A stretch of 64,000 nt of DNA, from the NCBI GenBank assembly GCA_004764695.1, contig SMSO01000031.1, forward strand, positions 7,621,261 to 7,685,260, given 5' to 3'. Positions within the stretch are counted from its first letter, which is position 1. Each line of letters begins with the position of its first letter. Origin of the DNA: Schizochytrium sp. TIO01. Its lineage: Eukaryota > Sar > Bigyra > Thraustochytrida > Thraustochytriidae. The notes below the pieces were generated by a model, which saw nothing but the letters and a program-made list of their open reading frames with translations, was not told where the DNA came from and did not search any database. Both the position numbers and the translations under genes were made by a program. Below, piece after piece: positions 5,227 through 64,000 of this stretch.

Positions 5227-6865
5227 TCTTGTGTTCATTTTTTGGATGTTTGATAGATCTAACAATCTACAAATCAATGTAAACTTTTACAGAGACTGAC
5301 TTCGATGGCTGGCTGAACCAGACATCAGAATGCTTCTCAGAATATTCTTTTTTTTAAATTACTCTACTATTATATACCTAGGCACCTATGTAGAAAACAT
5401 GTTGTTTTGCTTTTATCATCTTCCTTTAAGCGCGCTTTCTCATCAACCAACGTACAGTATTCAATTCAATTGAACTGCTTAATTATTCATCAAGAGCCTC
5501 TTGCTCTACCCGGAGAAATGACATTTCAAAACTTTTGTTACAACCCTATCCAAAGAGTCTCAAGAAGTTGGCTGGCTGCAACATTAGAGCGAGTCCGATT
5601 TCTCGCAGCACGTGGTTATTTCTCTGTTGTCTCCTTCAATTTGTCTCCTCCAATCGCAGCTTAGTGATGTATCGTCGCCGATCTTGTGACCACAGCACCG
5701 CTGAGAACTCCATTATAATGTCCCTAATTGGGAAGTATCTAAGTGAGACCTGGAAGCATTCCACAGAAGCGGTCCCTCGCGTCAGCTTTACCAGGTGATT
5801 GACGCTCTCGGTCAACGGAGGTTGACTGTTTACACTCACAGAGTGCGAGAAACCCCACTCCGTGTAGTCGGTAGGTACCTAGGCACTGCCTATCTACGAT
5901 CAAGGGGTCTCGCAAATCTCATCGCTACTTATCATCATGAAGAGCAGAGAGAATTCATGTTCACTTGACACTGATCACTCCTCTTGTATTCTGCTAATCG
6001 CTAGATTTTCTCAGATGAAGCTCGTCGATTCCTTCAAGTGTCTCCGCAGCCGCGCCCAATAAGTGTGTGTCGACCGCTGCTACAGTGTCTGCTGTCGCGA
6101 CCACTCTGGCTCGAAGCTGACGCCATGGATGTCAGAGTGGCTGGCAAAGTGGCCTGCAAGCTGGAGAGAACCTGAGTTGCATATCCGCAGCTTTATTTCA
6201 GCACCTGCGTGCCCAAGGGCGATCAATCGAAACCCAGCATCGCTGCTGCGTAACTTGATGGCGTTTAGCTAGCCCGCCTGTGTCAGGGCAGGGTTATTCT
6301 ATCTGAAGCCTGTGCTGTTTGCAGCTCGTAAGGGTGTAGGGACCCTTCCTTTCTCGTCACGAAAGATCAGAGGATCCGGGGTTAGACCATATAACAAACC
6401 AAGTTCTTGCGCGCTCGTCCTGCGTTCAGAGGCGTGGCATCGGCTCTGCTGCGGAGGACAACTCGAAAATATCCTGTCCTGAATGAAACTGGAAAAGTAG
6501 AAGAAAACGGAGCAGGAAGGAGATCAATGTCCTGGTGGATATTGGATTCTCTCACCCAAGAACTTTCAATCAACTCTCGAAACCCTAAACTACTGTAGAC
6601 TATTAGGTAAGTAGGTACTATCATATGACCTTGAATCTTTCTTACGAGTAGTAGGTAAATAGGGACTAGTAGGAATTTGAGGGAAAGATAAAAAGTTTTA
6701 TCTATTTATTTATTTTTAAAGAAAAAAATGAATCAATTGAAAAGAGGAAAATGCTTCAAAGATCTTGAGCAAACCAAGAACTCTGGATTGGAGATCTTCA
6801 AGGCGCTCAGTGAGTACTTCAGAGGATTTTGCGGGGATCTTCAGAAGAATTAAGCGAAGGTCAAG
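5227..6865. other. Intergenic region
   Basis: This 1.6-kb spacer lies between the TIR-like gene and the first SDR. Only short open frames without recognisable features were seen. The last 200 bases, purine-rich just before the ATG at 6866, are the likely SDR promoter and leader. Confidence 0.6.
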
Positions 6866-7900
6866 ATGGGAGGCAACTTCTCGTACGAAAAGCCTCAGGT
6901 GAAGTCGGTGGAGTACCCGAAGCTTCTGACGACTCTGCCCACGCAGGAAGGCAAGACTCATGTTATCACGGGTACTACCAGTGGCACTGGACTCGTGTTT
7001 GCCAAGACCGTGGTGCACTTGGGTGGCACCGTGATTTGCCTCAACAGGCCCAGCGAGCGAGCAGTCAAGGCCGAGGAAATCATTCGCAACTCCGGACCTG
7101 GCAAGGTGGAAATGGTGGATTGCGATCTCAAGGACTTTGAAAGCGTACGAAGTGCTGCGGCCAAGGTCCGTGAGCTGGCTCCAGATGGCATCTACTCGCT
7201 TGTCAACAACGCCGGTGTCATGGCGCTCCCTGCAGAGCCATGCCCGAAGGCTGAGGGTCTCGACGTCCAAATGACTGTGAACTGCCTGTCTGCATTTCTC
7301 TTGACCAAGGAACTCTTTCCCTTAATCAAGAAGGGTTCCGAGAAGTGGGGAGAAAGCCGTATTGTACAACACTCATCTGGAGCACGCAAACTTCCCCCCG
7401 GCGATCTTGAAGAGAGATACTGGACCAAGGGAGGTGATGTTGGCACGGACAGCAATGGTTGGATGATGAATGGAGATCGCTGGAAACGTTATCATCAGAC
7501 GAAGCTTGCCAACGGAGCTTTTGCGTATGAACTCGCCGATCGCATTGATGCTGCTGGCCTGAAAATCAAGTCAACCTTTGCTCACCCTGGTCTCGCTGCT
7601 ACTGATCTTCAAGCCACCACCACTGCCACAGGAGGCATGTGGCAAAATCCGTTGACCTCCTTGCTCATGAAGATGTCACAGTCTCCTGAGGACGGCACTT
7701 GTGGTATCATTCGATGCGCAATGGATTCTTCTGACCTTGTCAATAATGGCTCCTTCTTTGGCCCTGCTGGTTCTCGCCCGTATGGACCCGCGATTAGTCT
7801 TCCGCGAGAGGACGAGAAATCTTGTACAGATAAACCAGTGAACAAGGAGCTCTTCTGGCGTTGCTCTGAGGCTCTTCTGGGCAAATTTGAGGTAAAATAA
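6866..7900 (+). CDS. Short-chain dehydrogenase/reductase, tandem copy 1
   Basis: This 344-residue classical-type SDR acts as an NAD(P)(H)-dependent oxidoreductase; its substrate cannot be told from sequence. The cofactor loop TGTTSGTG lies at 35-42, NNAG at 114-117, a structural Asn at 139, the catalytic Ser in HSS at 170-171, the YHQTK active site at 209-213 (Y209, K213), and a PG turn at 241-242. The overall style (NRPSERAxKAE, HPGLAATDLQ) resembles the retinol dehydrogenase / WWOX / protochlorophyllide-reductase-like branch. The start is fixed by the conserved MGGxxS opening shared with the two downstream copies, which matches an N-myristoylation signal (Gly2, Ser6). There is no transmembrane segment, so lipid anchoring would be its only membrane link. 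It is the first of three same-strand paralogues. Confidence 0.93.
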   Translation: MGGNFSYEKPQVKSVEYPKLLTTLPTQEGKTHVITGTTSGTGLVFAKTVVHLGGTVICLNRPSERAVKAEEIIRNSGPGKVEMVDCDLKDFESVRSAAAKVRELAPDGIYSLVNNAGVMALPAEPCPKAEGLDVQMTVNCLSAFLLTKELFPLIKKGSEKWGESRIVQHSSGARKLPPGDLEERYWTKGGDVGTDSNGWMMNGDRWKRYHQTKLANGAFAYELADRIDAAGLKIKSTFAHPGLAATDLQATTTATGGMWQNPLTSLLMKMSQSPEDGTCGIIRCAMDSSDLVNNGSFFGPAGSRPYGPAISLPREDEKSCTDKPVNKELFWRCSEALLGKFEVK

Positions 7901-9036
7901 GTACTAGGCCTACACCAGTTTCATATAAGTGTCTAAACGTTTCAATGTAGTTTGGTAAAGGAGGTTTGTTAAACGCTGCGAAGAGGGTTATGCACGACAT
8001 AAACAGTGGCGACGACTGTCAAGAAAGAACTATGAAGCGCTCTCGCGGAAACATTTTTTGCAGTATGAATGAAAGCCGGTGGTGATTTTTGCAACCTTAA
8101 GCTAATCAATGAAATACTTTTCCTTTCTTTGAAGCCCTTGTGCCACAACATCAGTTCATTTTCTCCTGCTCTATGTTTTTTTGACAATAAAGAAAATAAC
8201 TAGTTTTACACTATTGCACTCTCAAACTGCGTACCCCATTGTACAGACAATACTTGCTGATAAGTCTATACTGCCGTCACTAGCGCTGCCTTTATCCCTT
8301 GCATCAATCCAACCCAGCAGGTAAATAAACATCTACCTACTTTAACATCATGATGACCTCACAAGGTTCCCTGGCACACACTGTTTAACAAACACTTGAC
8401 AGTCCACCATGGATGGATGGAAGTTAGTTAGTTAGTTAGACAACAAAACTTCCGCTGATTGTTTTTCTTTGCTCTTCTGTCGTTCTTGAAGACGTACTGC
8501 GCTTTTACGTACTGCACACCAGGTTTCTCGATCCACCCATCTATTACTTCATTCACTACGGTAGAATACTTATGAGTTCTTTTCATAATAAAGATTACTC
8601 AGTCTGGTACTTTTGCTTCTTTGTTCTATCGGCTTTTTTTGTTTTAAAAGTAACACCAACGTAGAGACGAGTCTTATAGACCCTGTTAAGGACTGCTAGA
8701 GGCACTTGGATCCCAAGGTGCTCGTTTAGGTACCTACCTAATCGCTTACTGTTTGATGGCCACCATCTCTTGAGATTCCAGAGCTTAGCAATCACCACTT
8801 GAGCCATACTTGAGCTTGAAGTTGGGACCCAAACACCGAGGGAGTTCTGCGTAACTTGCTGCATAACTATCTGCAAAGTCTTTGCAATGGACTGTGATTA
8901 GCTTAATTGGCAATGTGAAAATGCTCTTTTGACGATGATTTTGAAGCTGGAGAGCATGATACTCCAGCAAAACCAGAACACCCAAAGTCTAGCTTTTGCC
9001 ACAACATTAAACGAAGTAAGCGAGTAATTTACCAAG
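7901..9036. other. Spacer between SDR copies 1 and 2
   Basis: No gene is seen in this 1.1-kb stretch. It includes an AATAAA hexamer near 8187 that could serve as a poly(A) signal, a (GTTA)n patch near 8425-8441, and AT-rich DNA. No clear similarity to the spacer between copies 2 and 3 was visible by eye, so any duplication is old enough for the spacers to have diverged. Confidence 0.5.
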
Positions 9037-10080
9037 ATGGGAGGCGTTGTGAGCGAGTTCAAATATGAGAAGCCGCAAGTGAAATCCGTCGAGTACCCGA
9101 AGCTCATCGATACGCTCCCTCGCCAGGACGGCAAAATCCATGTGATTACTGGCACAACAAGTGGGACTGGACTAGTTTTTGCCAAGACCGTCGTGAGTCT
9201 TGGAGGAACTGCAATTTGCCTGAACAGGCCAAGCGATAGGGTCACGAAGGCAGAAGAAATCATTCGAAGTGCTGGACCTGGCAACGTTGAAATGGTTAAC
9301 TGCGACCTCAAAGACTTTGACAGTGTTCGCAGCGCTGCGGCCAAGGTTCGCGAGCTTGCTCCAAACGGAATTTACTCGCTGGTCAATAATGCTGGAGTCA
9401 TGGCACTTCCCGTCGAGCCATGCCCAAAAGCTGAAGGTATGGACGTGCAGGTGACTGTGAACTGTCTGTCAGGATTTCTCCTCGTAAAGGAGTTATTCCC
9501 ACTTCTCAAAAAGGGGTCGAGCCAATGGGGCGAAAGCCGCATAGTACAGCACTCCTCGCTAGCTCGCAAGTACCCTACCGGAGATCTCGAGGATAGGTAC
9601 TGGATTAAAAACGGCAACGTCGGGGGCAACGGCACTGGCATAATGATGGGAGGAGATCGTTGGAAGCGTTATCATCAAACAAAGCTTGCGAATGGCGCTT
9701 TTGCATACGAATTAGCAGACAGACTTGAGGCTACTGGACTTAAGGTCAAATCCACATTTGCTCACCCTGGCTTGGCGGCGACCGAATTGCAGGCAACAAC
9801 TACCAATTCTGGAGGCATGTGGCAAAACCCCGGTACCAACTTGTTCATGAAGTTGGCACAATCTTCAGAAGATGGTGCGTGCGGTATCATTCGGTGCGCC
9901 ATGGACTCCCCAGACAAGGTTCACAATGGCGATTTCTTCGGTCCAAAGGGTAATAAAATGAGCGGTCCCGCGGTGCTTCACTCTCGCAAAGCCGAGATAA
10001 AAACAACTGATAAACAAGCTAACAAGGAACTCTTCTGGCGCAATGCCGAAGCTCTTCTCGGAAAGTTTGATGTGATATAG
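9037..10080 (+). CDS. Short-chain dehydrogenase/reductase, tandem copy 2
   Basis: This 347-residue paralogue of the SDR at 6866 is collinear along its whole length and identical at most positions. It has the TGTTSGTG cofactor loop, NNAG, the HSS serine and YHQTK (Y212, K216), so it should be enzymatically competent. The N-terminus is MGGVVS, again Gly2 and Ser6 as in N-myristoylated proteins, followed by a three-residue longer leader than copy 1. Differences cluster in the region after the active site (for example GNVGGNGTGIMMGGD) and near the C-terminus, the parts that usually shape substrate specificity. Divergence of function is therefore possible. It lies 1.1 kb downstream of copy 1 on the same strand. 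Confidence 0.93.
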   Translation: MGGVVSEFKYEKPQVKSVEYPKLIDTLPRQDGKIHVITGTTSGTGLVFAKTVVSLGGTAICLNRPSDRVTKAEEIIRSAGPGNVEMVNCDLKDFDSVRSAAAKVRELAPNGIYSLVNNAGVMALPVEPCPKAEGMDVQVTVNCLSGFLLVKELFPLLKKGSSQWGESRIVQHSSLARKYPTGDLEDRYWIKNGNVGGNGTGIMMGGDRWKRYHQTKLANGAFAYELADRLEATGLKVKSTFAHPGLAATELQATTTNSGGMWQNPGTNLFMKLAQSSEDGACGIIRCAMDSPDKVHNGDFFGPKGNKMSGPAVLHSRKAEIKTTDKQANKELFWRNAEALLGKFDVI

Positions 10081-12060
10081 ACAGTTGTCTCAGTGCAGCA
10101 AGCTGGCGCTCAATGGCTCACGAGGGGAGATGACAGTCCTCTAGTTTTCCTGAAACTAAGGTTCCCTCCGGTGTGCTTTTTGCCATTCTAAAGATGGCAG
10201 ACGCGCCATTTGTTTTAGTAAAATAACTTTTCTAAATAAGAGAATTAATATGCTTATAGAGTAGAGTAACTCCACACAAGTGGCGTATGCATATCATGTC
10301 TTAGGTTGTTGAGTTTTGAAGTTTTGAAAACTTTTTGCTATTTTTTCGCAAGCTAGTTTTTTCGTTGGTCTTGATTTAAGTACAATTTACCACCTATCCT
10401 CACAGGAGTATCTCTATTTTGTAAGCTATCATTACAAGCAATCGAACATTTGTAACAGAGTTGTTGTGGCTTGAGTTTTTTCCCAAGTCAAAGGATTGAT
10501 AAGAGGAGTTTCTGGCTAGTGCGAGTGTTACTGTTGATAGACGAGTAGCTCGAAAGTACCCTTACTTGATTCACAAGTGAAGTACAATCGTCATGTCATA
10601 TATTCAATCTCTTCTCTCCTTCCACCCTTGTTTCTACTGAAGAAGAAATGAATAAACGTGGAACGACAACCTCTTGTACTCTGGCGTTGAAATACAGAAC
10701 ACCAGTCGTCACAAGCATCAATGATTTCCCACGAGTTTCTAGGTTCTTGAACGTCAGAGTCGTATCGCGCGGTTTCTTCCTAACAAGTTACTCGCCAAGG
10801 ACGTTTCATTACCATTGAGAGGTGCAATCCTCATTATGTTATCATGCGCATATTAAAAAGTTCGAAGAAGCTTAGGAAGTTTAAGGAGGAACTTTCCTAA
10901 CTCGCCATCTCCTGGTGAACTTGAAGTTCTGTACCTGCACAGGAATCAACAATCAACACCCAATCGAACTACACATCACATCACATCACATCACATCACA
11001 TCACATCACATCACGCCACACCGCATTGCAATCATCCTCCGCTCTAGTCATCATGTCCAGCCACAGCCCCATCCCTCAGCAAGAAATCTGCCATAGCCCT
11101 TGTGATCCAAGGCGTCAAGAACCTCAAACAAACTATAGGTAGACGCTTGCTGGGACTTGTTAGGGACACATGCTATATATACCTATACTTTTCCTTAGCC
11201 AAGTGCTATCGTTGTGTTTTTGTTCTGTCGTCCAAAAAGTGCGCTCTTGAGGAGATCGGGCAAAATCCACTTTCCAAAATGCACCAAAAACGACAATGTG
11301 CTGCACTCCTTCGCTTCGAAGGCTTGTTTCAGAACGCGAGGGCCGATCTCACGGCCACGTATTTTCCAGTGCTTTTGAGGACTGCCAAGGGAAGTTCAAG
11401 CGCGATGGCGCTATGCGTAAAGACAGATCTGAGCAAAGCCAGGTTTCTTTCCATGCATAGGCTGAAGTGCATTTTAGTCATATTAGTCATGATCCACATG
11501 CCCAGACAGGAAAGCTTAATGGTGAAGTTGACTGCTGGTTCTGTTCTTGGTCGGTGTGGAGGAAGGGGATTGAAGATCGACAATTATGAATGCTAACACT
11601 AGTGAGTGAGGCCAAGGGCGCCGTGAGGGTTGTTAAACAGTACGTCAGAACGTCTTCTCCACGCAACTGACGCCACGCGATACCGAAAAGTATGGCCAAG
11701 GCTAGGAAACCCCATGCGAACAAGGAGAACAAACAAGAGCCTTCTTACTTTACGGGTAGGGTACCTGATCACAAGGATAGCAAGTACGTAAAGAAAAACA
11801 GAGAATAGAATAATATGATTTGAAGGCTGTTTAGGTGTTACACTGTCTATATACCCCTCTGTATGAGAAAGAAGTGCCCGCACTGGACACACTACATATT
11901 TGGAATTTACTATTAAGTTCAACTGATCCTTAGTTTAAAAAAAATCGGCAGATAAGCATACCATTGAGGTGCAGCAAACCCAAAACATTCGAAAGCCATA
12001 AACTACCAAAGCAAGAAAACAAAGAAGCAGAAGAGCTCGTGACAAATTGCTTGTTTAAAA
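10081..12060. other. Spacer between SDR copies 2 and 3
   Basis: This is 2 kb without a supported gene. It holds a (CATCA)n microsatellite at about 10971-11014 and several short open frames (for example 11102-11596 on + with overlapping antisense frames) that show no domain and begin with non-conserved context. Confidence 0.55.
10971..11014. repeat. (ACATC)n pentanucleotide microsatellite
   Basis: Eight or so perfect CATCA pentamers, read directly. Confidence 0.92.
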
Positions 12061-13095
12061 ATGGGCGGCTCGTACAGTAGCAAGGCATACAAGAAGCCTG
12101 TTGTGGAATCCGTAGAGTACCCGAAGCTCATTAAGACGCTCCCTAGTCAGGAGGGCAAAACCCATGTCATCACCGGCACTACCAGTGGTACCGGTCTCGT
12201 ATTTGCTAAGACCGTTGTGCAGCTTGGCGGCACTGTAATTTGTCTCAACAGACCTAGTGAGCGAGCTGCTAAAGCCGAAGAGGTCATTCGCAGCTCTGGA
12301 CCGGGCAAGGTTCAAACGGTCGACTGCGATCTTAAAGACTTCGACTCAGTTCGCAAGGCTGCTGCCAAGGTTCGTGAGCTTGCCCCTGATGGCATCTATT
12401 CTTTAGTCAACAATGCTGGTGTCATGGCTCTCCCAGCAGAGCCCTGCCCAAAGGCTGAGGGTCTTGATGTGCAGATGACTGTAAACTGTCTTTCTGCATT
12501 TCTCTTGACTAAGGAGCTCTTCCCCTTGCTTAAGAAAGGTGCTGACAAGTGGGGTGACAGCCGTGTGGCGCAGCATTCTTCTGCATCTCGCAAGTTCCCT
12601 GCTGGTGATATTCATGAGCGCTACTGGACGAAGGGAGGCGATGTGGGCTCTGACAGTGTTGGTCTTATGATGGGAGGAGACCGCTGGAAGCGTTACCACC
12701 AGACCAAGTTGGCTGCTGGTGCATTTTCGTACGAGTTGGCGGATCGTATTGATGCTGCTGGCCTTAAGGTCAAGTCTACCTTTGCTCACCCTGGCCTTGC
12801 TGCAACCGATCTCCAGGAAACCTCTTCGACCTCCGGAGGCATGCGCTTTGCTTCACTTCTCATGAGGTTCTCGCAGTCTCCTGAAGATGGTGCATGCGGC
12901 ATTATTCGCTGCGCTATGGACTCACCGGAAAATGTCAGCAATGCTGACTTTTTTGGCCCTGAGGAGCCGAAGATGAGCGGTCCTGCTGTGCACCACCCTC
13001 GTAAGCAAGAGAAGGATACAACTGATAAACCTGTTAACAAAGAGACCTACTGGCGTTGTGCCGAACAGCTATTTGGAGAGTTCAAGGTAGAGTAA
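12061..13095 (+). CDS. Short-chain dehydrogenase/reductase, tandem copy 3
   Basis: This 344-residue protein is the third member of the tandem family. It shares the TGTTSGTG cofactor loop, NNAG, the HSS serine and the YHQTK motif (Y212, K216). It begins MGGSYS, so Gly2 and Ser6 are kept although the residues between differ from the other copies. That argues for selection on the lipidation signal rather than recent duplication alone. A three-residue deletion lies after the DLQ segment, where copies 1 and 2 have GGMWQNP and this copy has GGMRFAS. It is convergent with the Hsp20 gene 500 bases downstream. Confidence 0.93.
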   Translation: MGGSYSSKAYKKPVVESVEYPKLIKTLPSQEGKTHVITGTTSGTGLVFAKTVVQLGGTVICLNRPSERAAKAEEVIRSSGPGKVQTVDCDLKDFDSVRKAAAKVRELAPDGIYSLVNNAGVMALPAEPCPKAEGLDVQMTVNCLSAFLLTKELFPLLKKGADKWGDSRVAQHSSASRKFPAGDIHERYWTKGGDVGSDSVGLMMGGDRWKRYHQTKLAAGAFSYELADRIDAAGLKVKSTFAHPGLAATDLQETSSTSGGMRFASLLMRFSQSPEDGACGIIRCAMDSPENVSNADFFGPEEPKMSGPAVHHPRKQEKDTTDKPVNKETYWRCAEQLFGEFKVE

Positions 13096-16419: not shown

Positions 16420-19261
16420 TTAGACCCTGCCAAGTCTGTGGTTGGGCCTTGCGACGCCCACAACGGCCTCGTCGTCATCGTTGTCGGTGACATCTGAAGC
16501 CGTCGCGAGAAGCGATGCCGATGCAGTCGGTTCTGAGGGCAGCGTCGGGTACAAAGCCATCTCTGTCTCGCCGACGACCTCCTCTTCGTATTCATCGTCG
16601 TCCTCAAGGGTGTAGTCTCCCGGGGCCAGGGGAGAAGATCCCCGTCCGAGACGATCATTCACAGACTCGCGAAATTGCATCCAAGAATCGGCAAAAGATT
16701 CGCGAAAGCTCGACGGGGCGTCGCCCCCCGCAGAAGAGTCGTCCTCGTCGCGATCTTGAGATGCAATTGCGTAACCTGCAGCGGCCATAGCGCCAAAGAT
16801 GGAAGCCCAAAAGAACATAGACACAATAGAACCCATGCTAAAGGAAGAATTCTCATCATCACCATCATCATCATCATCATCATCATTGTCACCTGCACCA
16901 ACGCCTATCTGAAAAGTGATAGGTGTGTCTGAGGTGTAAGAACCCGGGTATACGTTGCCAGCCATGTCTACAATAGCAAAGCTTGAGACAAAGATGCTGT
17001 AATTTCCGGGCGGAAGGTTGATCACTTGTACATTACTAGCATCTGCGTTTGTATCAGGGTTAGCTTTATCGGAGGGGGTTCCGCTCAAGTCGATCTCTAC
17101 CGTGTCATGTAGAATTCGTGATGTCGTGAGACTAACTTGCTCTGAGGTTGCGAGAGGAATTTCTAATGCTTGCTCTGAGTCGCGAATCAAAGCCACCGTT
17201 CCGGATGATACTTCGACCTGCTCGTTAAAGACCAAACGAATCAATTGCGACCCGTCAGTAGGCAAGGTTACGTTGGCCAGAGCAGGAGCACGATTGTCGA
17301 TCCGGAGACACTCTGCGGAATTGCCATCCATGACTTCGAACTTAAGATTCATTGCATTTTGGTGTCCAGTTTTGTACACCTCTATCAGCATGTTACAGGG
17401 GTCTGCCTCGAACTCTGTAGCTTGTGATTGAAACTCTGCCTCTTCCTTACAATCTTCGTAGATTGTAAGGCAAGTATTTCGGCACCAACGCATAGTAAGG
17501 TAAGACATATCCCAAGTCGCAAATTTATGGGCAGCAGGCAAGCAGAGGGAGCAAGCAAGATTCTGCAACGATTGCCTACATGTAGCAGACTCGATTTTAG
17601 CCATTAATTCATCCTGAAAAGGTCCCAATATACTGTCAATGACTGAAGTAGAGCAGCAGGAAACTTGAGATCCATAGGAGCACATACCCGAGTAGGTTTC
17701 CTCGACAGCCTGTGGACGAGCTAGCGGCAGTGCTATGTCTGCTGATTTATAGTATAGGAAACATGTCTCCTGAGATTCGTCGGTACAGTCGTCAGTAACT
17801 GTAAAGGTTGCTGATTTGCATACAAAGGGATGCGACTCCTCACAGCTTGCGTACTCCCAGACAGGTTCTCCATCACTGTACTTCATGACCACACATTTAG
17901 CAGTGCGACCGGGGCCAGTTTGTACGCTTGTTCCCCAGGGATGGTAGTCAAAGCGTGTTTCATCCTCCCATGTCTGCAGGCCGGCACCTTTAGCTTGCAA
18001 CCCAATAAATACTTGGTCAACAGTTCCAGTCGAGAATGGAGCCCACGGAATAAGAGAGGAGATCAACATATTCTCAGCTTGACTATGGATTGAAACTAAT
18101 GAGCCAGCTCGCTCTTTTTGACAAAAGTTCTTTGCATCCTCAAAATCCATCTTGGAAGAAATATACTCATAGCGAAAGTTATGACGACTAATGCTTGAAG
18201 CTGGACGCAACGAAAAGCATGTTACAAATTGCCCCGCGTCAGACTCAACCTTGCTGCTGTCCATCCACCAAAATGTTGTATTTGTTGCAGGGCCGGAACT
18301 TGATGCCAAGTTTGCATGAGAAACTACCTCTTGAACTACAGTATCCAAGAGAACTTTGTCGCGAGTATGCGTACTGAGCATGAATGCATTATCTTCATTC
18401 CAATCTCCGAGGATCGAATCCCCAAGCCCAGTATTGGATTGTGGCTGCGTACAGCGCCACTGCTTGAAAATATTAGTACCGCCAGATACGCTCATGGCAA
18501 AGGATGGTTTGGAATTTGTTAATTGCAGGCGAATTGCAAACGCTCGATAATCCTTCAGCACGGCAAAACTTGCTGTGGTTTCTCCACTTGAAGATTGCAG
18601 TTGCTCTTGGCCATCGATGTACACGCTCAGGAAGCACGCACCCTCGAGTTTGTACCAGAACATTCTCCGTGCGTGAGTTGGTCAGTCGCACTTGCGTTGC
18701 CGTAGCGCGATTGCGATAGAATGCATCCATGTAGCTTCCCGAAATGCTGCATGTTGGCACTTTGGGTTCGGAAGAAGTTACTAACGACGCTGGCAGAGGT
18801 ACCACGGGCGTTGCACTGCCTTCAGCATGATCTACAATGAGGGCACGAATGTTACTCTGAGTTGCAACAGTGCTGATAATGGATTTCATGCTAGTTCGGC
18901 ATTCATCAGCAGCGAGGAAGACGATCGCGTTATGCGCTTCTTTTGCCTTTTCTACGATCGCTTGACGGGAAAGCTTTTCAAGTTCACATGCTGACCAAAC
19001 CTCCAAAGGCCCACTTAAACCAGCTGTCGGAATTAACGCAGAGAACTTTGCTTCTAGACATGGAACCCGTGCGCCTTTGTAGAGCGCACCACCAGAAGTG
19101 CTTGAGCTATCAGTGTTGCTTGACACATTCTCAATAAGGAGATTCGCCATACGCAATTCGCTGCCCCCTGTTGTAGATGCCAAGCTTCGCACTGAAGTTT
19201 GTGCGGCGGCCAGGTGCAATAACACTACAAGCACCAACAGTGTCTTGGTCCAAGACCGCAT
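16420..19261 (-). CDS. Type I membrane protein: PA-like, C-type lectin, cysteine-rich and Ig-like regions (frame-interrupted)
   Basis: The protein starts with a signal peptide (MRSWTKTLLVLVVLLHLAAA; a second ATG lies 12 codons upstream). A PA-domain-like region (nt about 19060-18800) and a PA14-like stretch (FLSVYIDGQEQ) follow. A C-type lectin fold lies at nt about 18185-17810, with SKMDFEDAKNFC, an SLVSIHSQAEN helix and a closing CEESHPFVCK. Next come a Cys-rich module resembling Frizzled/folate-receptor domains (nt about 17790-17310), a bacterial Ig-like region (FNEQVEVSSGT) and an Asp-rich linker. One membrane helix (nt about 16840-16765) and an acidic cytoplasmic tail close it. Role: probably a cell-surface carbohydrate or particle receptor (inference). 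Oddity: the N-terminal frame and the long C-terminal frame differ by one base, with the switch between about 18682 and 18660. No suitable intron was found, so this is a frameshift, a sequencing error or a damaged gene. Confidence 0.8.
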
Positions 19262-20718: not shown

Positions 20719-20960
20719 TGCAGTGCAATGTAGTGCAATGTAGTGCAATGTGATTCAATGTAGTGCAATGTGATTCAATGTAATGCAATGTAGTGCAATG
20801 TGATTCAATGTAAGCAATGTAATGCAATGTAATGCAATGTAATGCAATGTAATGCAATGTAATGCAATGTAATGCAATGCAATGCAATGTAATGCGATGT
20901 AAAACAATATAGTCCAATGTAATGCGATGCAGTACAGTCAAATACAAGTCAATGCTAGGC
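20719..20960. repeat. AATGY pentanucleotide array with 10-mer periodicity
   Basis: About 240 bases built from pentamers AATGC and AATGT, mostly alternating as a 10-base unit (AATGCAATGT), with GTAGTGCAAT and GTGATTCAAT variants at the left end and increasing decay at the right. The reverse complement of the AATGC unit recurs as a GCATT array near 49918. Confidence 0.92.
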
Positions 20961-27261: not shown

Positions 27262-28263
27262 TTACTCTTTCTTTTGCGCAGCAAGCTTGGTATGAATTTT
27301 AATAATAATATCCTCGTCGCGATAACCTTCACAGAGGCTGGCAAATGGAATTGCTTCTTCTTTTGTAAATCCTGCTTCAGAGGCTAGCAAGGACGAGAAC
27401 AGCTGCTCCTGAACACGTGAAGAATTTACTGTGTCCGCTACATGATTTTCAGAATCATTCACAGAGGTTTGTGCAATCTCATCTTGACTCGCGGGCACAT
27501 CCCGAACTTCATAGCATGATACAACTACTGCATACGAACTCGCTTGAGTCAGGTTTGCAATTGTGGCAACTAAGGCCCGCGTTGTGCTAGCGTCACCAGC
27601 ATAAATAAGGTCAGAGCATAAAATCGTGCTGAATGGGCACCTTTTCGCGATCTCAGGTGAGAGTGTTCGATCCCATTCGATGCTCGCGGCTTCAACGTGC
27701 GCAGTGTCAATGTGCGCACTATTGAGCTCAATTTGATGACGAATCCATTCCATTGCAGAAGGCCTTTCAGAAAGGATGACCTCTTGTGCTCCCAACGCGG
27801 CAGCTACAATGCCTGGAAGACCTAGTGCACATCCGAGCTCCACCACGCGTTGTCCCTTGACGAGTTCTACCTTTTGAGTAAGAAAACGTGCTAAAATTCC
27901 AGCACAATCCCAGAGCATCTTATTTTGCTCGCCCACAACTTCATCAATCACAATTGTGGTTTTGGAGTCTGGAAGATGAATTCCGAATTCTGGAATCTGA
28001 CGAAGAAGCGCCCGGTTCTTATTTGAGCGCTCTCGCTTTGCCACCGCTAGAAGTCTGCGCGACTTTTGTGCTTCTGTTTCATCAAAGAGGCTTGAAAATG
28101 TTCTTTCTGACTTATCTCCATTCTCACCAGTACCGTCTACATCATCCCCATCTTCGTCACTATAAGGTGCCCCGCCAAGCCTCGAGAACCAATCTCCATC
28201 TTCGTCGCTGCTGCTTTCTTCACTGTCGCTGCGCGATGGGTTGTGCTCGAATGTGGTGTCCAT
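27262..28263 (-). CDS. METTL21-type (Methyltransf_16) protein methyltransferase
   Basis: This 333-residue protein belongs to the seven-beta-strand SAM-dependent lysine methyltransferase group that modifies chaperones and translation factors. Visible motifs are LWDCAG (117-122, the family's LW(D/P) entry motif), motif I VELGCALGLPG (141-151) for SAM binding, an acidic residue after strand 2 (SERP), and SDLIY (217-221), equivalent to the DxxY substrate-site motif. Residues 1-65 are an acidic, Ser-rich disordered leader; a loop rich in Asn/Asp near the C-terminus is an insertion. The first ATG in frame (28263, MDTTFEH) is the start. The precise substrate cannot be told. The nearby CCT subunit gene is 13 kb away, so no link is implied. 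Confidence 0.9.
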   Translation of the reverse strand: MDTTFEHNPSRSDSEESSSDEDGDWFSRLGGAPYSDEDGDDVDGTGENGDKSERTFSSLFDETEAQKSRRLLAVAKRERSNKNRALLRQIPEFGIHLPDSKTTIVIDEVVGEQNKMLWDCAGILARFLTQKVELVKGQRVVELGCALGLPGIVAAALGAQEVILSERPSAMEWIRHQIELNSAHIDTAHVEAASIEWDRTLSPEIAKRCPFSTILCSDLIYAGDASTTRALVATIANLTQASSYAVVVSCYEVRDVPASQDEIAQTSVNDSENHVADTVNSSRVQEQLFSSLLASEAGFTKEEAIPFASLCEGYRDEDIIIKIHTKLAAQKKE

Positions 28264-29233
28264 GCTGACCACCCAAGTCAGCTCTAGTGGCGACTTCCGC
28301 CTTCGGAAACTCCAAGATAAATGATTTCTATCTACGGTCTAGAGTTGGAGCTTTACGCTCGCAAGCTGCGCAAGCTCAAATTCAAGGCTCTGCTCAACCT
28401 GAGTCCATGAGAGATTGTTCTGCAAATGAGAAGTGGTTGGTTCTCTTGCGTATTATGCACGGACTTGAAAATTCAAAGGTTTTAGTCACATAAATTGTTT
28501 TTATTTTGTCTATACTAGTGAGTACTAATAGATACCTAGGTGCCTGAAGGTAAGTCTAAAGTATGTACTGGACTAAAGGGCAAAATTAATATAGATATAT
28601 ATAGGCCTATATATCTTATTTTTTTGTAATGAAAGATTAAAAAATCAAATCAAAAACCTTTAAAAGCGTTTTTAAAAACAGATTTTCCGTGGAAGACATC
28701 AGGGTGGACATGAAGTCAATTGCAGCAATATAAAAGGTTGACGAAAATTATAAGATCGAGGAAAATTGAATGTATAAATGTATCTATGAATGTGTATAAA
28801 AGTATATAGTTAGAAAATAGGTAGCATCTTGAAAGAGTGGATAGAACACATACCATGTGGCGTGAGTTATCAAAACGCAGTGGGCGTGAAATCATCGCAC
28901 GCATGCAAGAAGGTAAACTTGTGATTATCTCCACATCGTACGCCAGGATGATTGAAGAAAAGACGAGAAATTTCGCAGGAAGAATGTTTGAGAGATCCTA
29001 TGGGTTGCACACATCTGAGTTACCACTCTCTCGATTCTGAAGAGATATGAGACGAAGAGAGAGAGTGGCTCAAAAATCTTACATGTGTGCAGTACCTTCA
29101 TATGATATTAAGGAGAGTGATGCAAACCTTTTATATAAGTAAAGAGGGACACGAAAATTAGCAGGAATGAGACATACAATTTGTACACTGTTGTTCTCTT
29201 CTTGGCATGTTACAGAACTGATGTTAAGACATT
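28264..29233. other. Intergenic region
   Basis: AT-rich 1-kb spacer. A 61-codon frame from the ATG at 28855 (MWRELSKRSG) to 29040 on the plus strand has a protein-like composition but no recognisable family, so it was not called. No other feature is seen. Confidence 0.5.
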
Positions 29234-31075
29234 TTAGGACGAACTGTCGTAAGCTTTACGCAGACGGGAAGGACCCGGTGCTGGACTGTGCATAGGTGGT
29301 GAATAGGGTTGAGGAGACTCATCAGAATAATCCGATCTGATACGGAAGTCATCTGCATCAATGCCTCGAAAGTAATCAGCAGAGTCGAAGCGGTGCACGC
29401 GTGGTGAATGCTCAGCCTGCAAACGCTCACGCGCAGCAGTTGTCGATGCTTCCTTATCATCCTCTTCAGCATCTACATGAGCGTGGTGTGGAGGGCCAAC
29501 CATTGACTTACGGTAGGTGACAGCTTTGTTGCTCAGCTTGCTTGCAAACTGGTGAACTGGCGCTGAAGTGCTACCTTCATCAGTAGCCTTGGATTCAACA
29601 GAGTTGTGTCGGCTGGAAGCACCATCCATTTGTTTAGCAAATCGAGATCTTGCGCTTCGCATGGGAGCGTCACCACCCTCCTTCCTATTAATACGCTTAT
29701 GAAGAAGACGCTGAGCCATTAGGGCACTGGAACTCTGTGGAGAAGCAGCACTGGCAGGTTCGTCAACAAGTCTCATAGGAGCTGGCGGAGGAGTGTTTTT
29801 GTCTCCACGAGGAGGTGACCCCGCCACAAGTTCTTCTTCTGCAGGTACACCTGTGAAAAAGTCTGCGCTGTCAAAACGACGCGTGTGTCGTACAGATCGT
29901 TCAAGGACCACACGACGAGCCTCTTCTCGGACGATTGGTTTATCTCTGGTGGCACGACGTAAAGCAGCATCGTCAGACAGAGCTCCACGAAAGAAGTCAG
30001 CACTATCAAAGCGTGGATGCGAGCCTTGGCGAAGCATATGAGCTCTGTTGCCCTTGTCTTGGCGAGGCGGTTGCTGGTGCTGAGATTCGCGAGAAACGGC
30101 AAACTCAGGGCTCAACGGCGTACCACACTCCAGTGCAAGACAATCGGACTCGTCCACAGAGTCGTTTCGTTTCAATCGCACCTCAGACGAGTGATCTCCA
30201 CTGTTCAGGGGAGAAGCAGTTTTAGTGGGCACTCGCGAAGTTTCAACCTGAAGATTATGCGCACGCATAGAGCGGAGGCGAGGGGGGCTCGTTCCTGCAA
30301 TGTTTTCCTCAGGTTGGAGACCCGTGAAGAAGTCGCCACTATCAAAGCGGCGAGCACGGCGGAATGTACGTTCCAGAAGAGCTCGAGTGCCGTCTTTACG
30401 TGGTTCTACAGTGGGATGCTGCAGCTTATCTGCATTAGAGCCGCGAGGCGTAGGAAATGGCAAGGGCGGGGCAGAACGTCTTGGGAAACGTGAGCTTTTG
30501 ATTGATCTATTTCTACCTGCAGGTGCGGCATCCTCGGTTGGGGTGCACGAATCGGTGCTAGAAACTGGTGAAGGATTGGGTTCGGCTTCAAGGTTTAAAA
30601 GGGCCGATTTTGCAGAAAATCGGGCGTTTCCAAGCCCGCTACGAGCAGTATCCTCTGTGTTGGGGTCGGAGGTCTCTGGGTGATGTTTACTCAACAGCTT
30701 CTCGTGAGTGCTGTGAGCGTGATGATGGCCAATTTCTTCGTTCTGCTCAATTTCCTCAAGGTACTCCTTTTGCTGTTCACGGGGGCGCATAAAGTACTCA
30801 CCAGAGTCAAAATGGCGCATTTCAAATAATCGATGATCAAGAAGCTCTCTGCGTCCTTTCATGACTGAATCAACACGCTGGAAGCCCCGCCCTGAGGTAC
30901 GGTTGAGAAGCTGGTTGCGCAGTGGTGACTGCGGCTGCCCTTGTTGTTGTGTTTCATTCATGAGAGAAGTAGCTGCAGACGAAGATGCAGCGGTGGATGA
31001 AGACGAAGGCGAGTTCTCCACAGATGTTGATGCTGGCATCCGTATGACACTGCCATGTTGGTCACCAGAATCCAT
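29234..31075 (-). CDS. Endosulfine-like protein with five FDS[GA][DE][FY]F motifs
   Basis: This 613-residue, mostly disordered protein repeats the endosulfine/ARPP19 core five times: FDSGEYF (89-95 region, Ser91), FDSGDFF (Ser246), FDSADFF (Ser358), FDSADFF (Ser403) and FDSADYF (Ser565). In ENSA/ARPP19/Igo proteins the Ser of FDSGDY is phosphorylated by Greatwall kinase, and the phospho-form inhibits PP2A-B55 to drive mitosis. Most copies here are preceded by a basic helix, such as LLERTFRRARR before the second, LERSVRHTRR before the fourth and ARERLQAEHSPRVHR before the fifth, matching the helix-basic-FDS layout of ENSA. Linkers are Pro/Ser-rich with many SP sites, suggesting further regulation. 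Normal endosulfines are about 110-170 residues with one motif. The ATG opens MDSGDQ. Function as a multivalent phosphatase inhibitor is inference; the repeats themselves are plain. Confidence 0.85.
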   Translation of the reverse strand: MDSGDQHGSVIRMPASTSVENSPSSSSTAASSSAATSLMNETQQQGQPQSPLRNQLLNRTSGRGFQRVDSVMKGRRELLDHRLFEMRHFDSGEYFMRPREQQKEYLEEIEQNEEIGHHHAHSTHEKLLSKHHPETSDPNTEDTARSGLGNARFSAKSALLNLEAEPNPSPVSSTDSCTPTEDAAPAGRNRSIKSSRFPRRSAPPLPFPTPRGSNADKLQHPTVEPRKDGTRALLERTFRRARRFDSGDFFTGLQPEENIAGTSPPRLRSMRAHNLQVETSRVPTKTASPLNSGDHSSEVRLKRNDSVDESDCLALECGTPLSPEFAVSRESQHQQPPRQDKGNRAHMLRQGSHPRFDSADFFRGALSDDAALRRATRDKPIVREEARRVVLERSVRHTRRFDSADFFTGVPAEEELVAGSPPRGDKNTPPPAPMRLVDEPASAASPQSSSALMAQRLLHKRINRKEGGDAPMRSARSRFAKQMDGASSRHNSVESKATDEGSTSAPVHQFASKLSNKAVTYRKSMVGPPHHAHVDAEEDDKEASTTAARERLQAEHSPRVHRFDSADYFRGIDADDFRIRSDYSDESPQPYSPPMHSPAPGPSRLRKAYDSSS

Positions 31076-49917: not shown

Positions 49918-50018
49918 TGCATTGCATTGCATTGCATTGCATTGCATTTTGCATTGCATTGCATTGCATTGCATTGCATTTTGCATTGCATTGCATTGCA
50001 TTGCATTGCATTGCATCA
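49918..50018. repeat. GCATT pentamer array with a 32-base higher-order unit
   Basis: Tandem GCATT units are interrupted by GCATTTT at 49944-49950 and again at 49976-49982, giving a 32-base higher-order period (one GCATTTT plus five GCATT). The unit is the reverse complement of the AATGC unit at 20719-20960. Confidence 0.92.
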
Positions 50019-51140
50019 TTCATTGATTCATTGCTGTGCTAGTGCTTCTATTATTATGCTTTTCTGCGGCTGTCATGCATAACCTTCGAACAAGAGAATG
50101 GAAATTATAGACATTGAATCCTCGTTCCGAAAATGCATCTCGCGCCACTGAAATACGATCAAGGCTCAGGAGTGGGAGACCTCGCGACAGCTGAGTGATC
50201 TGGATGGGAATCTGCAACAACGAGGAACGATGGTGCTCCTCCGTATTCGTTGAATATTGTCCATTTACGTACATTTCATTCATTTAGGTGTTCCGAGGAG
50301 TTGACATATGACATATCCTGGACTCCTACGTAGAGGCCTAAGTAACGGGGTGGCAGCAGTGGCAGTCGAAAGAGCGCAGAAGGTTCGCTGGAGTGCAAGA
50401 ACCTCTGGAACGCGAGACGAATCGAGAATCTTAGCGAACTTCGAAGATGGATGTAGATAGATTGGAATCAAATCACGCCTGACCAAACAAGTCCGCGTCA
50501 ACAGACACACCAAGGTTCAAGAAGAAGATATTCTCAACAGGGTTGCGTAAATATACTTCCGGCACGTTTACATATTCAACGGATGCTCTGGTTAAGCATT
50601 CCTACCTAGTTTTCAGGTGCGTCTGAAAAGATCGTCGTTGCAGCCAACAACCAAACAGTAAACGGCTCAGTTTCCTTATGTTTTACTGGACGAGCTCAGG
50701 CTACTGCGATTAAACCATCATTACCAGCTCATGTGCTTCTGAGGATGAATGTAGCACGCTTCTGGCCAGCGCCGCTGCTTCACTCGAACTTATCGACTGC
50801 CGAGAACCAACTGGGGAGCTCTTGCATTACATTTCCAAGTATCTTTTTCATGACTTATAACTGATAATCTACTACGAAGATCATAGTAAGCGTACCTAGC
50901 CTAGATAGTTCGTAACCCAGGGCAGACCTTGAAAGGAAGGAGTGAAGCCCCTCAAAACCAAAACTCTTGAACGGCGCAGGGGCCTAGCTTGGCACCATTG
51001 CTGAGGCAGCAAAGGGACCAAGATAAGTTGGATCAGAGTGCAAATACTTAGAGTTCGTTCTTCTTCAGAAGTCGTGGCGTTTGCTTGGACTGATTCGCAT
51101 TGGTCAACCTTAAAGCGAACAAAAGTCAGAATCTGTTATC

Positions 51141-56154: not shown

Positions 56155-59100
56155 CTAACGCCGAGCCGGATGTCTTGGCTTACTTGGACTTTGACGATTG
56201 GAGGCCTTGTTTTCTTCGCTTCTATTTATGAATGGTGGAATAGGCGAGGCCGGAGACTTCAAAGGTTCAGCAGAAGCAAAAGGCTCCTCGTCAGAGACAG
56301 AATTTGAAAACAATGTTTTCCAATGGCTATTGGAAAACGTATATGTTGTTGAAAGTGAGTTCGAGGTATTATGATCAGATGATCGGTCGAGTCGCAATGG
56401 AGTGCGGTTATGATGCCACTTGGGACGAAGGCCTGAAGGAGGAGTTTCAGTGACCAAGGGTGCAGGCCTTGCGAGTATGTTTTCTAGGTGCCCCGTTGCG
56501 TACTCCAGTGATGGCTCGATATGAGAAACCAGGTGCTTGATAGACATTTTCGGCAATCTGACAATCGGGGCAATGACCTTGTGCAGGTGGAGATCTTCCA
56601 CGTCGTCAGAGCGGAATTCAAGCTTGGGCAGACGCTCTTCTCGTAGAATGCGTTGCAATTCCTCTGAGAGGTTAATTTTGTCTCCAAAGGCAGCTACCTT
56701 GACTGCCCAAGAGTATGGGCTAGTGAGTGTACCATCGTTAGCATTTGATACCGGCGAAAGGTCAATCCAGAAGCTTTGCTGAGCTTCCACCCGCAGTGTA
56801 AGTAGAACATTGATATCAACACTCTGTGCCGGAAGCAGCGAGACTTCTGATGGTGCAAAGTTTACTGTGCCAATTTCTTCGGCATCACGCGCCACCAGAC
56901 GTACATTAAGTTCAACATCGCCAGAGTTCTTGACATGAAGATAAGCTGCCTGTCGAATGTGAGTCGAAACACGTCCAAAATTCAATACTCGCGGGAAATC
57001 GAGGCTGACGCGACCACCGATGCCTAATACCCGCACAGTTTCTTTCAGGAGCCTTGCGGCCGGGACACTTTTTGTTGGTAACTCAGCGTCATGACTGATG
57101 TCCAAATGTTTACCATCTGTACTCAATACACCTGGTTCCTTGTCAAAGGCATGTATAATTATTGCACCTTCATACGATTTTTCCTGAACTGGCATAAACA
57201 CTACCTGGACACTTTGAGAGGATCGGGCCTTTACCATCAATCGATTTGGCTTTACAGAAAACCAAGAACCACCAGTGCGCTCTAATTCAAAAAACATTGG
57301 CAACATACTAGTATTGCGCACAGTTAACGTATCCGCTTTGTTCAACATTGCACCTACAAAACCAAAATCAAGACATTGGGACGGTTTTAGTTTAATGCTT
57401 GCTTGACTGCCTTGACCTGTTACAGAGACTGAAAAAATCAAATCGTCGACCTGTATCTCGACCGTTGTCTCATAAAGTGCATCCTCACGTGGCCTAAAGA
57501 CAACAGGATAATCCACAACTTTGTGAGGACCTAATTTGATCGGATTTGCAGTAGGAGAATAGAAAGCTGCATCAGGAAATGTCACGCGGGCTTCAACAAC
57601 TTCCTCTGTGATATTTTCAAGACTCAAAATGCGCTCTTGAGACTGTCCCACGAAAACAGGATCCGTGAATCGAATCGGACCTAGGCTTTCTGCCTTGAAG
57701 ATATGATCCATCGTTTTAACATGTACGGGAAGTATCATTTCTGGAAGAGCGCCATGTAAGAAGCTAATAACGATCTTCACAGGATTGTGAAGAGAATCAA
57801 ACGATATGGGGAAATTACAGCGAAGCTTCACGGCAATCGGTTCACCTAAAACAAGGACGCCTTCTTTCCTTGACAGAGAGAAGTAAGCATTATAGTTCTC
57901 TGTAGAGTTTGGGTGCTTGTGCACAATAATTTGTGCTTTGAACGGAATGTACATAGTACTGTCAGTAGAAAGAACAAACGACTTAGACACAGCCTGTTTA
58001 GTTAAGATTGAGCCAAAAGAGAGCACTGCACCTACTCGTGCTGTCTCTTCTTCATTTAAGAAGCTTGAAGAATCTTGACCATCTCCACCCGCACTCAGAT
58101 CACGAATGCGAACCACACCTTTTTCAGCATCTGTTGGTAAAGGATCTGAAAGCTCAACAATGACCCGCGGGACGGTCAATACGTATTTTAGCTCGATTGG
58201 GAAAGGAGGGAGGTTGCCTGGACGTAAAAGGTATACCTTAAAAGAACAGGGCACAGCTGACTGCGATTGTGCATTCATTAATGCACGGAAGCGATGAACA
58301 TGCTGTTTTGCAGGTATCTTTTTTGCATCCAGCCATGAATCGGGAATACCAAGACGGACCTCGACAACAGAATCCTCATTTTCGGTAGCTAAGAGAACCG
58401 ACCTTGATAATTCTAGGTGCCCAAGCTCGTGAACTGTAGGCAAGACATCATTGGGCAGCAAGCCACCTTCGCCAGCAAGGATACCCCCTGCACCAAAAGG
58501 TGGCTTCCACCGCGGATCCCACGATGCATCCCCAAAAAGAAGTTTCAATGGCACATCCTGCGATCCACGGCGTTGTAAAATGAGCTGGGTCGTCTGCACC
58601 TCGCCGAAATTCCATCGACCAAAATCGATGCAATTTTGTAAGCGATCCATTTGCAAATCAAATGATTGTGCATCAGCACAAATCATAACCTCCCTCGCGC
58701 CACCGCCTCTACCGCGTTCGATATTGGTGTCAATTATTAGCTTCGCTTGAAGATTCCCGCGGAAGCGAGGACAAAAAGAAAGCATCATACATAGCTCTGC
58801 GCCAGCAGCTAGAACACCAAAACCATAATAGACAGGTTGTTCGATCCCCTCACCAACACCGTCTCCTGGGTGGCTTAGCTCCCCAATGCTTTGTGCATAA
58901 TCCAAGAATTCAGGGGTTTGCCCCACTGCTAGATCTAGCTTCGCTGGAATTGCACGATTGCGATGAGTACTATTAGGTCGTTGCCAGCCTAGAAACAGAA
59001 CTTGTTCATAGTCTTCAGTCGATTCATATTCGATACGAGGTTTGACATGTAACATACCAGTGCCCCTATTACGAAAGATGATCGGTATGGAAATCGAAGA

Positions 59101-62100: not shown

Positions 62101-64000
62101 ATAGCTAGGAATAACAAGGCGATCCATGAGAACAGTCCACTCTCCAAAAGCTGTGCCTACGTTGCGTAAAATAAACTTTGCAGTAGAAGGACAGTGCAAG
62201 GTAACAAGACCCATATCTTGTTGAAGGGCGTCCGCTTCTAAAATAACTCGACCGATATCAGCAACTATAGGAACATTGATAATTGACCAATGCCCATCCG
62301 GAACAAGTTGCCAGCGAATTTTCAAATTCGAATCAAGAGTGGTGAGATCTTCAAACAAATGCTCATCCTCAACTGGCACGCAACAATTTATGAATATAGC
62401 CTCTGTGCCTCCAGATGCGCCAAGTACAAATATCTCCTGGCTTGAAGAGAAGTATGGAGATTCGCATAAGACTTCCAAAGTGGCTTTGAGAGATCCACTA
62501 TTGCTTAGAACAAGCTTTGCAGATGACTCTACTCCGAATTTGATTGCAGAAAAGCGCACTGCGTCGGACTTTGCTTCAACTCGAGCAGCTGCACCAACTC
62601 CACTTAAAGAGACATTTCGTCGACCAAAGACATCTTCAAGAGCTAATTGAGCGTGGTATTCAGTGTTTGCGTGTATGGGACGAAATCGCACTGGTATTGT
62701 GACAGTGCAACCAGGTTCTACGACCAGTGCACTGTCAGGGATCTCGAAGCTCAAATTATTGCATCGTGCACAATGAAAGGATTGCGGCTGAAGAGACTCG
62801 TTGGTCGCAGAAATGTACATCATCGTCCCTTCGTTGTGCACATCTGGAGGGAAATGTTCTTGCGCCGCGGTTGGCTTAAAGCTGAGCTGTTGAGGCCTGA
62901 AAACAAGTCTTCGAACGGCAGTTCCTTCCAAACGCATGTTAAAGGACGAGCTCTCTACACTAAGAATTTCTGCATCTCCTAGTTCAACATCAGTGCGCAT
63001 GTCAGGAACCTGCCAAGGCAAGAAGTCCATGGCAATTGGTACACTAACTGGAATACATACATCGGCAATGAAACTAACTCGTAAGATAAATGAATCTCCA
63101 GATTTCAGAGGAGGCAACTCAGGCAGCTCAGCATTTTGATAACGGTCTAGCGGTGCTTCAGGAATTAGAAGCCGTGGCATTAAGCCACCTTCCCTTTGAA
63201 GAAACCGTTCTAAGCTCGGCATCTGCATTTGCACTCATGAGCAGGTTGGCCTGTTCTGGGTGAAGCAGGCAAGATGATTGACTCAGAATCAAGCTCGATG
63301 AATTCGAATGCTGGTGCATGCTATTTGTAAATAAATGAGGTCTTGATCCACTATTTTGTTCCAGGTACTGTTGCATGGAGCGATTGAGCTGAGAACTAGA
63401 GTTACCCAGTTGCAGCATGTCTTGACGCGAACCTTGTTTAAGTTTAACAGATTGAAAAAATTTCGAATTGCGTCCGTAGGAAGGTTTCTCCATCCTGAAA
63501 GATGTCTCGCGGCGTTTTTGAAATGCAACAGACCCGTGAGCTTTGAAGGAAGCTCTGCTACGCAGTGCCCGTGACATAGCTGGCATTTTAATCTTTTGGA
63601 TAGAAGCAGAACCTGTGATTCTCGATTGCAGTTGTTTTGCGCGCGTTTTTCGCACAGCATGACCCAGACGCTGTTTAAGAACAATCCAAGTATATGGCCT
63701 TTCGGTGATCGGCATGACATTCGTTGTCTCAGTAAAAGAGGGCAATACTCCAATGAATGTGATGCGAGTTCTACGAAGCTGCCAGGCCAAGTTCCGTAGA
63801 CCAGTGTACTTGATACGAGAAAGGCACAGGGGAAGATTCCCAGTATTTGTCACTGTAACAAAACTTGAACTTATTGTTCCGTATTTGCGCGGACCAAACT
63901 GCACCAAACCGCCACTATGCGAGACGGAGGACAACAAGTTCATCTCACCGCAAATTCCTCGTAATAAGAATACTGAAGGCTTTCCATTTAGCATGCAAGT
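56155..64000 (-). CDS. Giant ASH/MSP-repeat (HYDIN-like) ciliary protein, partial
   Basis: More than 2,500 codons are present, with the 5' end beyond the right edge (the frame is still open at 64000). The protein is a string of immunoglobulin-like ASH/MSP domains. Their signature, an FG-type turn then a strand ending in NxG, recurs many times: LNFGRCQIDG, IDFGQCQLSS with FRNRGTG, CLDFGFVGAM with VRNTS, LNFGRVSTH with VKNSGDVELN, and VQFGPRKYG with VTNTGNLPL at the right end. Such repeats build axonemal central-pair and related proteins (HYDIN, CFAP47, CFAP65). The frame changes between about 63405 and 63222. One explanation is a 172-nt intron (63405-63234, donor GTAACT, weak acceptor ATGAG) that keeps frame; the other is a single-base frameshift. 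The C-terminus (SPSKPRHPARR) ends in a stop at 56155. Which ASH family it belongs to was not settled. Confidence 0.88.

Follow-up and report, generated by a model that had tools for sequence, protein, structure and literature searches.

The predicted gene described here, from the genome of Schizochytrium sp. TIO01, encodes a 613-residue protein in which the endosulfine-type phosphosite motif FDS[GA][DE][FY]F occurs five times (Ser91, Ser246, Ser358, Ser403 and Ser565). Judged by its sequence, the protein is best described as endosulfine-like and not as a full member of the Pfam Endosulfine family. It is probably a multivalent endosulfine built from three full units and two motif-only units, for which we infer phosphorylation, binding, inhibition, stoichiometry and a delay. 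The gene lies in the window, that is, the whole stretch of 64,000 nucleotides that was analysed, and its predicted frame runs from an ATG at 31075 to a stop codon at 29234-29236 with zero internal stops. The gene and its motifs are located as follows:

29234..31075, minus strand: predicted five-motif endosulfine-like protein, 613 amino acids, one open reading frame; Pfam Endosulfine 18.3 bits
30791-30811, minus strand: motif 1, FDSGEYF, Ser91
30326-30346, minus strand: motif 2, FDSGDFF, Ser246
29990-30010, minus strand: motif 3, FDSADFF, Ser358
29855-29875, minus strand: motif 4, FDSADFF, Ser403
29369-29389, minus strand: motif 5, FDSADYF, Ser565

The open reading frame and the motif scan reproduced the coordinates, strand, frame and all five serine positions given in the first-pass annotation, which was also right that Gly is replaced by Ala in three copies (repeats 3, 4 and 5, FDSAD). 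The five-motif array is real and not a product of chance. The heptad appeared in none of 20,000 composition-preserving shuffles of the 613-residue protein, against five copies in the real sequence, whose composition is biased (79 Ser, 67 Arg and 52 Pro out of 613). The heptad serine is encoded by TCT in two repeats (1 and 5) and by AGT or AGC in the other three (2, 3 and 4). Since conserved heptad residues use different codons, the array does not stem from recent DNA duplication. The protein also contains 16 S/T-P sites, which would allow CDK input.

The sequences around the five serines fall into two kinds of unit:

30785..30886, minus strand: unit 1, residues 64-97, predicted helix plus FDSGEYF, Ser91, full endosulfine-like unit (Pfam, flank shuffles, AF2)
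30320..30391, minus strand: unit 2, residues 229-252, predicted helix plus FDSGDFF, Ser246 (upstream kinship to units 1 and 4; AF2 fragment)
29984..30058, minus strand: unit 3, residues 340-364, motif-only, FDSADFF, Ser358 (no −12/−8 pair, Pro at −4)
29849..29929, minus strand: unit 4, residues 383-409, predicted helix plus FDSADFF, Ser403 (upstream kinship to units 2 and 1)
29363..29431, minus strand: unit 5, residues 549-571, motif-only, FDSADYF, Ser565 (no −12/−8 pair, Pro at −7)

Unit pairs were compared in serine-anchored alignments with 5000 shuffles each, and no correction was applied to these 20 comparisons. Over the 16 residues upstream of the serine, shuffles equalled the real score 11 times for the pair 1-2, 34 times for 1-4 and never for 2-4, and the remaining seven pairs were unrelated (at least 957 of 5000 shuffles equal). 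The downstream stretches were alike in the pairs 2-4 (11/5000), 3-5 (17/5000) and 4-5 (2/5000) and more weakly so in 3-4 (114/5000) and 2-5 (128/5000); the other five pairs showed no downstream likeness (at least 483).

Helices that bind B55 carry hydrophobic residues at positions i and i+4 and a mainly basic residue at i+2, ARPP19 using L49 and L53 (PMC11446282). In a test framed after the units had been seen, hydrophobic residues at both −12 and −8 were found only ahead of Ser91, Ser246 and Ser403 among 77 serines tested; over the whole protein, such a pair occurs at 13 of 601 positions. Position −10 is His at Ser91 and Arg at Ser246 and Ser403. Units 3 and 5 have no such hydrophobic pair, and each contains a proline in its upstream stretch, at −4 and −7, respectively. 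The upstream stretches of units 1, 2 and 4 therefore appear close to the B55-binding helix rule, which units 3 and 5 lack.

Structure prediction of the full protein with AF2 from the single sequence gave a low-confidence model (mean pLDDT 44.8) with helices at residues 64-90 and 383-394. The first, directly before Ser91, had pLDDT means of 57-76 over 10-residue blocks, and the second, which ends a few residues before Ser403, was mostly below 50. This low-confidence model placed no helix ahead of units 2, 3 or 5, and a single-sequence model of the fragment 215-275 (mean pLDDT 61.8) predicted one at 229-243, just before Ser246. A basic helix had been proposed ahead of most copies; helix-like stretches of this kind precede three of the five (units 1, 2 and 4), and the proposal does not hold for units 3 and 5.

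Endosulfine (PF04667) was the only Pfam family reported for the protein, in a scan run at a maximum E of 10 with filters that remove most matches above about E 0.1. The match scored 18.3 bits (E 0.0025), below the curated cut-off of 29.8 bits, and joined residues 76-122 to profile positions 23-65 (43 of 80 covered). As a scale, the query sequences used for human ENSA and ARPP19 scored 34.9 and 36.9 bits, respectively, and that used for Igo1 scored 109.7 bits, a match that does not verify every residue of the query. When the repeats were scanned as separate 60-mers, Endosulfine was matched by one of the five (repeat 1, E 0.017) and by none of five flank-shuffled controls, one of which matched an unrelated family at E 1.4. 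Endosulfine proteins are small and single-site, and the present protein has 613 residues and five sites, all of them close variants of the FDSGDY-type phosphosite and none of them exactly FDSGDY.

The contribution of the sequence outside the heptad was estimated with a small four-sequence endosulfine profile, the heptad being kept and the flanks shuffled 2000 times per repeat. Shuffles equalled the real score once for unit 1, 96 times for unit 2, 1914 times for unit 3, 1326 times for unit 4 and 760 times for unit 5. Outside the heptad, then, likeness to endosulfines is clear in repeat 1, marginal in repeat 2 and lacking in repeats 3-5. With the same profile, 758 of 2000 shuffles of the whole protein gave some domain, with a top score of 4.8 bits; repeat 1 of the real protein reached 11.2 bits and repeat 2 reached 4.7 bits, which leaves repeat 2 inside this null. 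The earlier expectation that the repeats would score above random against the endosulfine family was borne out for repeat 1, marginally for repeat 2 and not for repeats 3, 4 and 5. The profile does not support the view that most units resemble ENSA, since one does so clearly and a second only marginally; the helix rule would count three. A five-repeat profile searched against the PDB, which may lack an ARPP19 chain, returned five sequences at E ≤ 10; the top one was ribosomal L35 (E 0.062), and there was no endosulfine among them. The whole protein matched seven PDB sequences, all of them ROR-gamma at E 2.9 or worse.

Compared with its own genome, the whole five-motif protein matched only itself. 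A six-codon pattern of the motif had 25 matches in the genome (19 for the reversed control), five of which are in this gene. Among the other 20, nine lack a serine in third place and the remaining 11 do encode FDS[GA][DE][FY], four in long frames and seven in frames of 35-80 codons; judged by eye, none of these 11 places has an endosulfine-like context. A W-ended pattern gave two matches, one of which encodes FDSADW in an unrelated frame of 1006 codons. No second endosulfine-like gene was seen by motif pattern and eye, a search that an intron-split motif would escape. Family searches of the genome with PF04667 gave no candidates at E ≤ 0.001 or E ≤ 10, and protein searches with ARPP19 and Igo1 cores had no match at E ≤ 10. 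Since these searches missed even the gene in the window, we give them no weight as evidence that a single-site endosulfine is absent. A genome search with the elicitin family PF00964 also gave no candidates. Relatives of the five-motif protein, known here from one genome, were sought in viral and prokaryotic contigs. In viral contigs, the repeat alignment returned 13 pattern stretches and the whole protein 10, none of which was confirmed, and the repeat alignment returned 35 in the genome-contig collection, again with none confirmed.

Elsewhere in the window, the neighbouring frame at 27265-28338 encodes a Methyltransf_16 protein, three consecutive short-chain dehydrogenase frames lie on the plus strand (6854-13092), and a frame of 752 residues that includes a C-type lectin domain lies on the minus strand (16426-18681). 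Also on the minus strand is a 2358-residue frame with HYDIN/CFAP65/Cep192-like Ig domains (56161-63234). Two tandem arrays were noted, one with 20.7 copies of a 10-base unit (20724-20929) and one based on TGCAT that can also be read as a 32-base unit (49918-50034). Outside the window, at C4:611570-614607 of the same genome (locus L044 and on), ten matches coding for LGIDSIKR lie on one strand at distances of 324-381 bases, and the reversed control gave none. Such a layout is seen where a PUFA synthase carries its ACPs in tandem, a thraustochytrid trait, and the ten copies point to a PUFA synthase and hence to a thraustochytrid. Thraustochytrids belong to the stramenopiles, a group distant from animals and fungi, and have multinucleate stages.

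Both partners of an endosulfine switch, which the first-pass annotation proposed to look for, appear to be encoded in the same genome: a B55 subunit (locus L029) and a Greatwall-like AGC kinase (locus L032/L048). An N-lobe sequence of MASTL, confirmed against the PDB, was used as a probe; of 369 candidates, 150 were scored, and they yielded at least 134 matches to kinases, with L032 the best. Among 12 loci compared of the 134 matches, L032 was top for both lobes, the C-lobe probe being a provisional sequence. The best solved match of the L032/L048 kinase was Greatwall (E 1e-73, 252 bits), with CBK1 close at 247 bits. Its DFG-to-APE span is 86 residues, compared with 72 in L037 and 19-23 in the other 10 of the 12 loci; the span of Greatwall itself is about 550 residues (PMC11961639). 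The domains DUF1908 and PDZ, characteristic of MAST1-4, were absent from the L032/L048 kinase in a search of Pfam families at E ≤ 0.1. The kinase retains the S-x-x-G-T site, which MAST kinases lack (PMC11961639). From these sequence features, we consider L032/L048 a Greatwall-like kinase candidate.

A B55 fragment whose identity was supported by its match to human B55-alpha in the PDB had three matches in the genome and revealed two B55-like frames. L029 matched B55-alpha of the PDB entry 8ttb_B at E 2e-141, and seven of the eight pocket residues named in PMC11446282 are identical in it, D340 being replaced by Glu. The second frame, L030 (contig C31, about 5055434-5055868, minus strand), has diverged further, with 38% over 220 aligned columns. 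In the alignment read by eye, its pocket differs in that Y178 is replaced by Phe, D197 by Asn and V228 by Tyr. Since most eukaryotes should have B55 and AGC kinases, their presence is necessary and not a strong argument. The parts of the proposal that sequence supports are the five motifs, the context of unit 1, the upstream kinship of units 1, 2 and 4, the B55 pocket and the Greatwall-like kinase. With the profile result and the presence of both partners taken together, the protein is best read as endosulfine-like, with five sites of the Greatwall type.

Other readings of the array were weighed against this one. Chance or a low-complexity coincidence might be suspected from the bias toward Ser, Arg and Pro, but we give it almost no credence, because the shuffled proteins never contained the heptad and the upstream stretches of units 1, 2 and 4 are related. 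It is improbable, though somewhat less so, that a different short linear motif, such as one for trafficking or scaffold docking, converged on FDSGD-like letters in a disordered adaptor unrelated to PP2A. The motif is short, its 6-mer FDS[GA][DE][FY] is found in four other long genome frames that are unrelated by eye, and the protein is rich in Ser, Arg and Pro. Such convergence would, however, have to account for the Pfam match and flank test of unit 1 and for the helix rule ahead of three copies, and it sits less easily with a genome that encodes B55 and a Greatwall-like kinase, although both are expected in most eukaryotes.

A more substantial alternative, which we still regard as unlikely, is that only unit 1 (perhaps also units 2 and 4) works and that the remaining FDSAD copies serve the kinase as substrates or decoys, which would buffer or tune the Greatwall-type kinase without inhibiting PP2A-B55. 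It would agree with the finding that the sole Pfam Endosulfine match and the strong flank-shuffle result both belong to unit 1, with the absence of the helix rule from units 3 and 5, and with the Gly-to-Ala replacement in repeats 3, 4 and 5. Against it, all five heptads are kept amid diverged units and synonymous codon differences, including the aromatic residue at +3 and Phe at +4, which a mere kinase site would presumably not need, and unit 4 keeps the helix rule.

In the multivalent reading that we prefer, the protein is probably disordered, and as many as five of the FDS[GA][DE][FY]F serines would be phosphorylated by an AGC kinase of the Greatwall/MAST type. Each phosphoserine would become a tight, slowly hydrolysed pseudo-substrate of PP2A-B55. 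In units 1, 2 and 4, the amphipathic basic upstream helix may dock on the helix pocket of B55 and put the phosphoserine into the active site, as in ARPP19/ENSA, and units 3 and 5, without the helix, could serve as extra phosphosites for a phosphatase that the same chain already holds. A single molecule might hold several PP2A-B55 enzymes, or one enzyme through several rounds of dephosphorylation, and the outcome would be a delay before the dephosphorylation of CDK sites resumes.

The first-pass annotation had suggested that five sites could give an ultrasensitive switch, an idea that a toy tight-binding model did not favour. The model compared a five-site chain, with one enzyme per chain and no exchange, with a common pool in which the same number of sites is spread over individual molecules. 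Release of the phosphatase from 10 to 90% took place at 50-159 s with the five-site chain, at 82-126 s with separate molecules and at 2-46 s with a single site at 1:1. The half-times of the chain and the separate molecules were alike (93 and 94 s), and the chain released the phosphatase less sharply. Within this model, both arrangements delay release relative to the 1:1 site and the chain does not sharpen it, so a device for delay or stoichiometry seems the better guess, ahead of an ultrasensitive switch. We suggest only tentatively that the lineage uses one multivalent inhibitor, with full and site-only helper units, in place of a single-site endosulfine. If that were true, the timing of the phosphatase would be set by the number of sites per chain and not by how many copies of a small inhibitor are present.

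In the literature searched, no paper was found with FDSADY, FDSADF, FDSGDF, FDSGEY, FDSADW or FDSGEF, and none was found that joined endosulfine with an oomycete or a thraustochytrid. Among the matches listed in broader searches, no title or start of an abstract named a multi-site endosulfine. Labandera et al. (2015) reportedly treat the conservation of endosulfines across eukaryotes and could hold prior art. The five-site version would be a variant of the known endosulfine switch, for which prior art is possible; to our knowledge, the Greatwall-endosulfine-PP2A-B55 switch is known from single-site endosulfines.

The animal proteins ENSA and ARPP19 have one site in about 110-120 residues, whereas the present protein has five in 613 and is about five times longer than human ENSA (121 residues). 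Relative to their motif, Gly is replaced by Ala in three copies, Tyr by Phe in three and Asp by Glu in one, and all five have Phe at +4. The budding yeast endosulfines Igo1 and Igo2, targets of Rim15, are also small proteins with one site, in contrast to five sites in 613 residues. In Igo1, the hydrophobic pair presumably also lies at −12/−8, as in units 1, 2 and 4. We know of no FDSGDY phosphosite array in FAM122A or other helical B55 binders. These binders place a helix on the same B55 surface, and ENSA and ARPP19 share with the five-motif protein the FDSGDY-type Greatwall site and, in units 1, 2 and 4, a predicted upstream helix with hydrophobic i/i+4 residues (L49/L53 in ARPP19), although the pair is at −13/−9 from S62 in ARPP19 (PMC11446282) and at −12/−8 here. 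Phosphorylated endosulfine is described in PMC3949306 as a tight, slow substrate of PP2A-B55, and in the 'unfair competition' model of the same paper the inhibitor must exceed the phosphatase, with an excess of no more than about fivefold. If functional, the five-site version would tie this inhibitor excess to protein architecture and would offer a direct test of the effect of valency on the timing of mitotic exit.
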